DNA of 58,382 nucleotides, taken from Ruminococcus sp. (GTDB lineage: Bacteria; Bacillota; Clostridia; Oscillospirales; Acutalibacteraceae). The DNA is taken from assembly GCA_022768065.1 (NCBI GenBank), contig JALELS010000003.1, positions 1-58,382 of the forward strand, in the 5' to 3' direction. A program made the position numbers and the translations under genes. Below are positions 31,117 to 35,963 of the stretch, in pieces; the first letter of the stretch is position 1; every line of letters begins with the position of its first letter. The notes under the pieces were generated by a model that did not search any database, was not told the DNA's origin, and saw nothing but the letters and a program-made list of their open reading frames with translations.

Positions 31117-31219
31117 AAAATCACCACTTTTACCCGTTTTGTTCCGTATTTTACAGCTTAAATTACCGCTTAAAGCGAGAGTAAAATCCGAATTATGACC
31201 CTAAAATACGAAATATTAT

Positions 31220-31353
31220 TTTTAAACACAGCTTTTATATTTTGTAAAACAAAAGCACCGAAACATGCTGTCCGCATATCCGGTGCCCTTTAAATCTGAT
31301 TTTTTGTTTCGTTAGCGAAGTTTTCGACAAAAATGCGGTTCAAATGTCTAAAA
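31220..31353. promoter_or_regulatory. Cluster of three TTTTNRACA nonamers (candidate DnaA boxes)
   Basis: TTTTAAACA at 31220-31228 and TTTTCGACA at 31321-31329 on the plus strand, and TTTTAGACA on the minus strand at 31345-31353. The same three sequences occur between dnaA and dnaN. Fourteen bases at 31343-31356 are the exact reverse complement of 35885-35898. Function as DnaA sites is inference. Confidence 0.45.
31244..31286 (-). terminator. Terminator of the rpmH-jag operon
   Basis: GCACCG (31255-31260) with CGGTGC (31281-31286), inner ATGC/GCAT, followed on the minus strand by TTTTGTTTT. It lies about 95 bases after the jag stop. Confidence 0.85.
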
Positions 31354-31381
31354 CTCTTTCGATAATGAAGAAAAGTCGGGA

Positions 31382-32368
31382 TTATTCCTCGGTATTTTTC
31401 TTAATTTCGATTTTTCCGTAAACCGAAACGCCTGCAACGTCGTTCTTCTGTTCACGGTCCGGAGCTACCTGCGGAACATACGGCTCGCGCTTGGGTCTGC
31501 GGTCATTTCTGCCGCCGCGGCCTCTGCGATAATTTCTGTCGCCGTAGCTGCCCTTGCCGCCGTTTTCGGGAGCAATAACAACTCTGCGGTCAAGGTCCTG
31601 ACCTACCGAGAACGAAGTAGCACCCTCAACCTCTTGAACGGCAGTGTGAATAATTCTGCGCTCATAAGGATTCATCGGCTCAAGAGTTATGTTTCTGCCT
31701 GTACGAACGGCTCTTGCAGCGTCCTTTTTAGCAAGAGAAATAAGAGCACCCTTGCGCTTTTCGCGGTAATTGCCGACATTTATCGAAACGCGCTTATAGC
31801 CCGAAACACCGCGGTTTGCAACCATTCTTGCAAGGTACTGTATAGCGTCGAGAGTCTCGCCGCGTCTGCCGATTACTATACCGTAATCATCGCCGCAGTC
31901 AAGCTCAAAAACAATCTCTTCGTCGTCTGCAAAGGTTTTTACGTTGCATTCGGGAAGCCCGAGACCCTTTACGATTTCCGCTATATAAGAAGCGGTTTTT
32001 TCGTATTCGTTTGTCTCTTTTAAAGAAGCCTTTTTCTCCTCTTCGGTCTTTTCGGCTTTTTCTGCCTTTTCGACCTTACGGGTATCTTCCTTTTTGGCTT
32101 CCTTTTTTCTGTCATCGGCCTTTTTGGGAGCCGAAGCGGTTTTTTTGTACGGTTTCTTTTCGGAAACGGGTTTTTCCTTTTTCTCGGGAACGTCAACCCA
32201 AACCTTTACTTCGGCAGGTTTACCGCCGAAAATGCCGAAAGTCTTTTTCTGCGGCATCTGCAAAACTTCTATATTGTATTCGTCGTCCTCTGTAAGACCG
32301 AGCTCCAAAAGGGCGGCGGCTTTAGCGTCCTCTATGGTGGACGCGGATTTAACCGATTCTTTAATCAT
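31382..32368 (-). CDS. jag: Jag/KhpB RNA-binding protein
   Basis: 328 residues. Jag_N domain at about 1-55 (VKSASTIEDAKAAALLELGL, then KKTFGIFGGKPAEVKVWV), a long charged Lys/Glu linker at about 60-125, a KH domain with IGRRGETLDAIQYL, an R3H domain with MNPYERRIIHTAVQ, and an Arg/Gly-rich tail (GRGGRNDRRPKREP). It binds RNA with KhpA and affects division and sporulation in relatives. It follows yidC by about 20 bases, the usual order. The Arg/Gly tail is longer than in B. subtilis, so additional RNA contacts are possible. Confidence 0.94.
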   Translation of the reverse strand: MIKESVKSASTIEDAKAAALLELGLTEDDEYNIEVLQMPQKKTFGIFGGKPAEVKVWVDVPEKKEKPVSEKKPYKKTASAPKKADDRKKEAKKEDTRKVEKAEKAEKTEEEKKASLKETNEYEKTASYIAEIVKGLGLPECNVKTFADDEEIVFELDCGDDYGIVIGRRGETLDAIQYLARMVANRGVSGYKRVSINVGNYREKRKGALISLAKKDAARAVRTGRNITLEPMNPYERRIIHTAVQEVEGATSFSVGQDLDRRVVIAPENGGKGSYGDRNYRRGRGGRNDRRPKREPYVPQVAPDREQKNDVAGVSVYGKIEIKKNTEE

Positions 32369-34430: not shown

Positions 34431-35759
34431 ATGGACTCGTTTTCCGAGATATGGTCTGCGGCGTGCGATTATATGAAAAACGCGCTTAATGTCAGCGAAG
34501 TTGCGTTTAATTTGTGGATTTCGCCGCTTGTTCCCGAGAGCTTTGACGGGCAGACCGCAAAATTTACCTGCCCCACGGCATATAAAATACAGATAATTAC
34601 CGCAAGATACGATGCCACAATCAAAGAGGCTTTGACGGCTGTTATGGGCTTTGACGATATAGAGGTAATTTACCTTTATAAACCCGAAAAAACCGACGAC
34701 GACGAAAAAGAGCAAAATACCGAAAAAAATCATCTTTCTTCGCGTGACAGCTCAAGCACGTTTGAAAATTTCATAGTCGGCTCGACAAACAAATTTGCCT
34801 ATGCCACGGCTCTCAACGCAGCCGAAAATCCGGGTGAGGAATACAATCCCCTGTTTATTTACGGCAAGAGCGGACTCGGCAAAACGCATCTTTTAAAAGC
34901 CATTAAAAACCGAATGCTCGAAAAAAATCCGTCGGCAAACGTTCTTTATACCACAAGTGAAAATTTTACAAACGACCTTATTTATTATCTCGGCAAAAAA
35001 AATATGGGCGAATTTCACGACAAGTACAGAAACGTCGACGCGCTTTTAATAGACGATATTCAGTTTATAGCAAATAAAAAGAGCACCGAAGAGGAATTTT
35101 TCCACACCTTCAATGCTTTAACCGAAGTCAACAAGCAAATTGTTTTGACGTCGGATAATCCGCCCGACGAAATACCCACTCTTCAGGACAGGCTCAAAAC
35201 CCGTTTCACCTGGGGAATGATGGCGGATATTACTCCCCCCGACCTCGAAACAAGAATGGCTATCGTAAAAAGCAAGGCGGACGGCCTCGGCCTTACACTA
35301 CCCAACAACATAGTCGAATTTATAGCCGAGCAGGTAAAATACAACGTCCGTCAGCTTGAGGGAGCGGTAAACAAAATAAACGCTCTTACAAAGCTCGCCG
35401 GAAAAGAACCCACAATAGATTTGGCACGGGACGCCATAAAAGAGGTTCTCAACTTCAATCAGCCTATCTCGGTCACCATAAGCAACATTATAAACAACGT
35501 CGGAAACACTTTCGGAATATCCCCCGAAAACATAATGTCCGACAAGCGCGATAAAAACATTAAGGACGCAAGGCAGGTTTCAATGTACATAATCCGCGAA
35601 ATCACCGGAATGAAGCTTGTCGATATAGGAAACGTTTTTAACGGCAAAACACATTCCACCGTCAATCACTCTATAGAAGTAATTGAAGACAGGATGAATG
35701 AAAATCCCGTATTCAAAAAAACGGTGGAGGATATTATTAAAAACACACAGGAGTTTTAA
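34431..35759 (+). CDS. dnaA: Chromosomal replication initiator protein DnaA
   Basis: 442 residues from ATG 34431, which has CGGAG upstream. Domain I (about 1-75), a short acidic domain II (about 85-108), AAA+ domain with Walker A GKSGLGKT (145-152) and Walker B LLIDDI (205-210), and DNA-binding domain IV. DnaA opens oriC. Domain IV departs from the family: the near-invariant GRDHTT that reads the DnaA box is GKTHST (residues 405-410), so the base-contacting Asp is Thr407 and one Thr is Ser409; the arginine in DARQ is kept. This goes with the absence of standard DnaA boxes nearby. The frame is intact and the gene is the first of the plus-strand replication cluster. Confidence 0.98.
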   Translation: MDSFSEIWSAACDYMKNALNVSEVAFNLWISPLVPESFDGQTAKFTCPTAYKIQIITARYDATIKEALTAVMGFDDIEVIYLYKPEKTDDDEKEQNTEKNHLSSRDSSSTFENFIVGSTNKFAYATALNAAENPGEEYNPLFIYGKSGLGKTHLLKAIKNRMLEKNPSANVLYTTSENFTNDLIYYLGKKNMGEFHDKYRNVDALLIDDIQFIANKKSTEEEFFHTFNALTEVNKQIVLTSDNPPDEIPTLQDRLKTRFTWGMMADITPPDLETRMAIVKSKADGLGLTLPNNIVEFIAEQVKYNVRQLEGAVNKINALTKLAGKEPTIDLARDAIKEVLNFNQPISVTISNIINNVGNTFGISPENIMSDKRDKNIKDARQVSMYIIREITGMKLVDIGNVFNGKTHSTVNHSIEVIEDRMNENPVFKKTVEDIIKNTQEF

Positions 35760-35963
35760 ACAAGTTTTGATTTTCGACATACCGGTTTTGAACAGTTAAA
35801 TTTTGTCTGTTAATTGAACAACTTTTAAACATCGAAATAACAATCGCAAAGCCTTGTTTTTTTCTTTTGTATAAACGGTTTCGGGAGTTTTAGACATTTC
35901 GCCGCGCACTAATAATAATACTATTTATATATTTTATTTATTTTATTTTGAAAGGAAATCTTT
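35760..35963 (+). promoter_or_regulatory. dnaA-dnaN gap with four TTTTNRACA repeats (candidate oriC part)
   Basis: Same-strand nonamers TTTTCGACA (35771-35779), TTTTGAACA (35786-35794), TTTTAAACA (35823-35831) and TTTTAGACA (35888-35896), with a weaker AATTGAACA at 35812. The 3' end is an AT-rich tract (35910-35945). No TTATNCACA is present. This gap is where several Firmicutes have a DnaA-box cluster; identity of these sites as DnaA boxes is inferred. Confidence 0.6.

Follow-up and report, generated by a model that had tools for sequence, protein, structure and literature searches.

In the window, a stretch of 58,382 bases that is one entire contig of an assembly totalling 1.92 Mb, the gap between dnaA and dnaN carries five plus-strand nonamers of the form TTTTNRACA, and comparison with related sequences suggests that they are most likely the DnaA boxes of this lineage. 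We put at roughly 0.93 the probability that they are the DnaA-binding sites of oriC, that they are read by a DnaA lacking the recognition-helix aspartate known as D433 in E. coli, that their sequence has shifted from the canonical box, and that the last of them nucleates unwinding of adjoining DnaA-trio-like repeats. The features concerned are the following.

34431..35759, plus strand: dnaA, 442 aa plus stop (TIGR00362 475.5 bits, PF00308, PF08299; best solved match 8btg)
35640..35675, plus strand: recognition helix codons NGKTHSTVNHSI (alignment to 8btg; domain IV alignment of 216 loci)
35649-35651, plus strand: codon of T407, which is D in B. subtilis and E. coli (E. coli D433)
35754..35762, plus strand: box 1, TTTTAAACA, overlapping the dnaA stop codon and aligned in many clade A relatives
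35771..35779, plus strand: box 2, TTTTCGACA (pattern match; alignment across relatives)
35786..35794, plus strand: box 3, TTTTGAACA (pattern match; alignment across relatives)
35823..35831, plus strand: box 4, TTTTAAACA (pattern match; alignment across relatives)
35888..35896, plus strand: box 5, TTTTAGACA, adjoining the putative unwinding element (pattern match; alignment)
35897..35908, plus strand: GC-rich spacer TTTCGCCGCGCA, 12 nt (12-13 nt in 21 of 23 filter-passing genus gaps)
35909..35929, plus strand: DnaA-trio-like repeats CTAATAATAATACTATTTATA followed by AT-rich DNA, the putative unwinding element, in the form of the C. difficile trio given in the available part of PMC7561715
35964..37070, plus strand: dnaN (TIGR00663, Pfam)

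The two genes adjoin each other as in origins of the dnaA-dnaN type, rnpA/rpmH precede dnaA, and recF, gyrB and gyrA follow dnaN (these neighbours being recognised by eye). Furthermore, the cumulative GC skew along the 58 kb contig reaches its minimum in the bin from 34 to 36 kb, which is the skew switch expected of oriC. The preliminary description had listed four TTTTNRACA nonamers at 35771, 35786, 35823 and 35888; their positions and their strand are correct and the same-strand cluster is real, but a fifth, TTTTAAACA at 35754-35762, had been overlooked. The cluster of TTWTNCACA boxes by which oriC is commonly defined is absent from the gap of the window, which holds no such box and five TTTTNRACA instead, and neither TTATNCACA nor TTTTNCACA occurs in it. 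When the gap was folded as a single strand, it showed no more structure than expected (z = 1.5).

Chance clustering in AT-rich DNA is almost certainly not the explanation, even though the gap is AT-rich and TTTTNRACA is common and mildly enriched genome-wide (483 occurrences vs 378 of the reversed pattern). When the 222-base gap was shuffled 20,000 times with its dinucleotides preserved, the plus strand held no nonamer in 15,767 cases, one in 3,861, two in 346, three in 25, four in 1 and five in none, and the nonamers are conserved in relatives; on both grounds this explanation was rejected. The shuffle mean of about 0.23 per gap is some ten times higher than the 0.02 that had been estimated from base composition for 200 bases of one strand, so that estimate was too low, although the conclusion drawn from it is unaffected. 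The window was cut into 1,572 overlapping tiles of 222 bases, and four or five nonamers occur in only four of them, all over the dnaA-dnaN gap; the highest count outside it is three, at 31155-31413. Same-strand pairs 1-30 bases apart occur six times genome-wide (once for the reversed control) and are confined to the dnaA-dnaN gap, C8:39446 and C23:197214. Thus the density, which the preliminary description had proposed to compare with other regions, has no equal in the window, and the only two other places with close pairs in the genome are both conserved clusters, described below.

Three TTTTNRACA also lie within 134 bases at 31220-31353 of the window, downstream of jag and upstream of mnmE. 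A strong DnaA-binding region is reported for the jag/mnmE (trmE) gene gap of B. subtilis in the accessible text of PMC4447404, and the window cluster was considered as its counterpart. This was rejected: among 29 relative loci, of which 28 have jag and 14 of these an adjoining mnmE (up to 300 bases behind jag being scanned where mnmE was absent), a single nonamer was found, in one locus (L264), and the cluster is therefore not counted as support.

The dnaA gene could be followed through domain IV in 34 of 36 genomes of the genus, the present one included; it is cut at its start in G005, and G008 and G013 were dropped because their dnaA matches were weak at best. Two groups make up the genus. 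The recognition helix carries T or Q (GKTHSTV and near forms, GKQHSTV) in the 19 genomes of clade A and reads GRNHSTV in the 15 of clade B. At least two TTTTNRACA are present in 33 of the 34 gaps, the exception being G025, whose contig stretch has no dnaN, and the alignment reveals that the box places are largely kept across the genus, with insertions in some gaps and decay of some boxes. The conservation in relatives, on which the earlier proposal had been made to depend, is therefore borne out.

The sequence of the boxes is specific to each clade. For TTTTN[A/C/G/T]ACA, the 19 gaps of clade A yield counts of 69/3/9/3 vs a shuffle expectation of 2.9/0.5/1.3/2.2, and the 15 gaps of clade B 31/1/16/2 vs 3.2/0.8/1.1/2.0. 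One TTWTNCACA remains in each of 3 clade A gaps and in 1 clade B gap. The corresponding counts in the 151 gaps of loci with D433 are 155/156/7/20 vs 20.9/10.6/7.8/12.0 expected, plus 118 copies of TTATNCACA, and here position 5 is C in 118 of 162 TTTTNRACA boxes. A purine stands at position 5 in 55 of 78 clade A boxes vs 10 of 47 in clade B. Relatives with D or H at 433 also use TTTTCAACA, itself a TTTTNRACA match. The nonamers had been described as differing from the canonical box at the third position and at the C before ACA; of the two, only the latter is a new feature, with C6 lost to A or G, since TTTTCCACA is a common box in the wider order and T3 is thus ordinary. As T3 and A6 are both ordinary in the wider group, the change lies in C6 having been lost and G6 gained, to which clade A adds a purine at position 5.

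The DnaA of the window is a full-length equivalog with ATPase and helix-turn-helix domains (TIGR00362 475.5 bits vs a cut-off of 343.9; PF00308, PF08299, PF11638), and its closest named relatives are records from Oscillospiraceae and other Clostridia at 48-49% identity. A search with an alignment as the query located 80 named loci. The canonical base-contact residues are R399, P423, D433, H434, T435 and H439, as listed in the part of PMC7561715 that could be consulted, and the 34-residue distance given there identifies R373 of the window protein as R399. This set is only partly preserved: R373, H408 and H413 are kept, while P423 is replaced by V397, D433 by T407 and T435 by S409, although S at 435 is also frequent in relatives with canonical boxes. 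At the position of E. coli L438, the window protein has N (residue 412); the 34 genus proteins divide into 18 with K and 16 with N at this position, whereas 171 of 182 proteins from outside the genus have V, I, L or M there and one has K. In E. coli, D433 and L438 make contacts at box position 7, not 6, according to the available text of PMC8235120. The bases that changed in this lineage are 5 and 6, as opposed to the published contact at 7. Asparagine-adenine and aspartate-cytosine are classical pairs, which makes a putative direct contact of residue 433 with box base 6 plausible.

Downstream of the boxes, TTTTAGACA is followed after 12 nt by seven trinucleotides with a middle T (A on the trio strand), which corresponds to the basal unwinding system (BUS) arrangement of a DnaA box, a spacer of at most 16 bp and at least three trios, the box itself being of the altered type. 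A last box, 12-13 nt and then CTA/ATA-type repeats is the pattern of the genus: a strict box-spacer-trio filter is passed by 23 of 34 gaps (11 of 19 in clade A and 12 of 15 in clade B, hence 8 and 3 failures), 8 of the 23 having been accepted with a one-mismatch box, and the spacer is 12 or 13 nt in 21 of them and 16 nt in L026 and L027. For comparison, 13 bp is the commonest spacer of the BUS search program as far as described in the accessible part of PMC8287927. On the other side of the gene, TTWTNRACA is absent from the 450 bp upstream of dnaA in 15 of the 19 genomes of clade A; the upstream part of the usual bipartite origin thus seems empty, and it may have been lost in this clade. The same interval holds one or two TTWTNRACA in 9 of 12 testable clade B genomes, and canonical boxes lie upstream of dnaA in 61 of 92 D/H relatives.

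Taken together, these features suggest a mechanism in which the DnaA of the lineage has lost its highly conserved recognition-helix aspartate (E. coli D433), here in favour of T407 and with N in place of L438, and its boxes have moved from TTWTCCACA to TTTTNRACA, in clade A mainly TTTT(A/G)AACA. DnaA would bind boxes 1-5 in one orientation, box 5 would place an ATP-DnaA filament across the GC-rich spacer onto the CTA/ATA trios, and the AT-rich DNA before dnaN would then open, in the manner of the B. subtilis basal unwinding system. What the sequences show directly is the place, number, order, conservation and clade-specific form of the boxes and their association with residue 433; binding by DnaA is what we infer from covariation and position.

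The covariation was examined at 216 loci, where a gap with any C6 box was labelled C, one without C6 and with at least two purine-6 boxes was labelled R, and 23 remained without either label. The counts for C, R and no label are 119/14/18 for D, 12/4/3 for H, 6/19/1 for N, 3/13/1 for T, 0/2/0 for Q and 0/1/0 for S, which means that the R label applies to 35 of 44 labelled N/T/Q/S loci vs 18 of 149 of the rest, and outside the genus to 6 of 11 vs the same 18 of 149. Exceptions occur on both sides: the N433 loci L114, L126, L225 and L228, which are grouped on the tree, keep TTTTCCACA; the gap of the N433 genome G454 has one TTTTCCACA and that of the K433 genome G475 one TTTTACACA; and such D433 genomes as G506 and G455 carry purine-6 boxes alone in the oriC gap. 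Outside the genus, mutual information did not place residue 433 among the top columns of domain IV. The claim that the nonamers match the altered DnaA hence survives as an association with residue 433, but not as a rule, given the four N433 loci that keep TTTTCCACA.

A second type of site comes from the two other clusters of the genome itself, at C23:197214-197243 (L151 3715-3744) and C8:39446-39475 (L039 3447-3476), which share a layout of box, box, 3 bp and box. Of 39 genus genomes 35 have this layout, as do 46 of 120 in the family, the reversed control giving no match at either level; in the class, 30 of 293 genomes have it, and the control matched once. Of these 30 genomes, 25 belong to other orders, and there 47 of 56 boxes 2 and 3 have C6, so the layout reads as a cluster of DnaA boxes. 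Of the boxes 2 and 3 in 29 relatives with D or H at residue 433 (E. coli numbering), 41 of 72 have C6, and none of the 146 in 43 genomes with another residue does (22 with N, 14 with T, 4 with K, 2 with Q and 1 with S). A purine at position 6 without C5 is seen in all 54 boxes of the T/Q genomes, in 9 of 10 with K, in 1 of 2 with S, in 6 of 80 with N and in 7 of 72 with D/H. These counts by residue leave out G437, G515, G456, G008, G013, G424 and G426, and clusters classed as 'CA only' are included in the box counts and excluded from the tree test of the clusters. Since the genomes are not independent, Fisher values overstate the significance.

Of 30 genus cluster loci, 6 adjoin an 8-oxoguanine glycosylase gene and 9 an ABC permease gene, and promoter-like sequence was seen by eye behind the off-origin clusters, which could be titration sites or DnaA-controlled promoters. 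Behind the glycosylase-side cluster lies a short gene (L151 3908-4165, 86 aa) whose product has a hydrophobic C-terminus and matches nothing in Pfam. In G033, G026, G002, G003, G031 and G011, one copy of the cluster shares a contig with oriC, at a distance of about 20-130 kb from dnaA. In addition, K433 was seen in four family genomes (G462, G493, G475 and G482; loci L315, L319, L323 and L327) together with purine-6 in cluster boxes 2 and 3, and the GKKHST.KHS helix of two K433 genomes resembles the GKTHSTVKHS of clade A.

In a blind test, the class of residue 433 was called from the cluster boxes alone, before the DnaA proteins were inspected. All five genomes called as not D/H proved to be so (K, K, K, K and N), and all 13 testable genomes of the sixteen called D/H have D or H, which gives 18 of 18 testable named predictions; G437, G515 and G456 were lost because they lack domain IV (3 of 36 later loci). 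Taken literally, the rule also designates five further genomes as non-D/H, three classed as ambiguous (G497, G479 and G455) and the unlisted G351 and G451. All five have D or H, so that the literal non-D/H rule is right in 5 of 10 cases, compared with 13 of 13 when C6 is used (Fisher 0.0075). Cluster C6 is therefore a good predictor of D/H, and purine-6 alone a poorer predictor of a changed residue, since purine-6 boxes occur in D/H genomes too. In the oriC gaps of the blind-test genomes, the split between box and residue is weaker than in the clusters.

A tree of 247 DnaA proteins, built without domain IV, contains 12 changes between D/H and other residues (an earlier tree omitted 2 of 216 loci that were too short). 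When oriC and cluster boxes are pooled, boxes are purine-type in 53 of 56 non-D/H loci vs 35 of 171 D/H loci, and of six supported independent contrasts 4.8 agree and 0 oppose (median p 0.0625). The separate labels are underpowered, with 5 supported contrasts and a median p of 0.25 for oriC and 2 contrasts and a median p of 0.5 for the clusters. The association of residue 433 with the boxes is thus strong in counts and unopposed by contrasts, and the independent events are few.

How this association came about can be read in more than one way. Tentatively, and at a little short of even odds, residue 433 and box positions 5-6 would form a recognition code that has been rewritten several times within one order, in oriC and off-origin clusters alike. 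Under such a code, D or H would go with C6 or C5-A6, N would mostly take C5-A6/G6, and T, Q and K would take (A/G)5-(A/G)6, and whole sets of replication sites would have moved with one residue of an essential initiator. Nearly as probable is the alternative that the nonamers are DnaA boxes whose preference was set by other changes (L438 to N or K, the loss of P423, or domain IV as a whole) or by drift, with residue 433 merely travelling along. This would fit with the finding that residue 412 (L438) carries about as much information as residue 407 (D433) and several other domain IV columns carry as much or nearly as much, that L114, L126, L225 and L228 keep C6 despite N433, and that T/Q433 always occurs with K or N at 438 (19 of 19 clade A proteins). 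However, the K433 genomes differ at 438 (L in G462, I in G482, K in G475 and G493), yet their cluster boxes 2 and 3 are all purine-6 and lack C5 in 9 of 10, and the complete absence of C6 from the 146 boxes of all non-D/H genomes likewise speaks against this alternative.

Very improbable is the binding of a different regulator, such as a promoter factor of dnaN. The nonamers do lie upstream of dnaN, and the conserved clusters elsewhere adjoin what looks by eye like promoter sequence, but the position of the nonamers and their spacing to the trios are those of DnaA boxes, few canonical boxes (the single copies in three clade A genomes and one clade B genome) remain in the genus gaps, and the off-origin cluster consists mostly of canonical DnaA boxes in other orders and varies with residue 433 of DnaA. 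The proposal that the nonamers are the DnaA boxes of this lineage is supported by conservation, shuffles, trios, skew and the off-origin cluster.

The origin closely resembles the Bacillus/Clostridium-type oriC2 with a BUS, with which it shares, as far as the available parts of PMC8287927 and PMC7561715 describe it, the dnaA-dnaN location, same-strand boxes, 12-13 nt between the last box and CTA-type trios, and AT-rich DNA behind them; it differs in its TTTTNRACA boxes in place of TTWTNCACA and in the apparently empty upstream half of clade A. Lineage-specific DnaA boxes with a TTCAC core are described for Epsilonproteobacteria in the accessible text of PMC5043019, but there C6 is kept, position 5 is T and the protein changes lie at 435 and 438-439, whereas here D433 and C6 are both lost. 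The tmaDnaA boxes of Thermotoga maritima, ACCTACCAC, are also lineage-specific (PMC10316083, available portion), and its DnaA, without most canonical contact residues, similarly reads a different box (PMC7561715 and PMC10316083, as far as accessible). That box is far more divergent, whereas here 8 of 9 positions fit TTWTNCACA and the change took place within one family. The off-origin clusters are comparable, at the level of clusters, to the DnaA-box clusters of B. subtilis and the three-box cores of E. coli DARS, which place DnaA boxes away from oriC (PMC4447404 and PMC4245941, in the parts available). Searches of an open-access library turned up no account of the loss of D433 and C6 with a series of replacement residues and boxes, and in the first of the papers listed for TTTTGAACA the string is part of primer sequences. 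Lineage-specific DnaA boxes as such are already known.

To conclude, a clade in which the initiator and its sites have both changed shows how an essential protein-DNA interface with many sites may be rewired, and the three-box cluster offers a readout of DnaA specificity that is independent of oriC. The natural variants (T, Q, N, S and K) are available to test the recognition rule. Moreover, these findings suggest that the oriC boxes of such genomes would escape standard searches.
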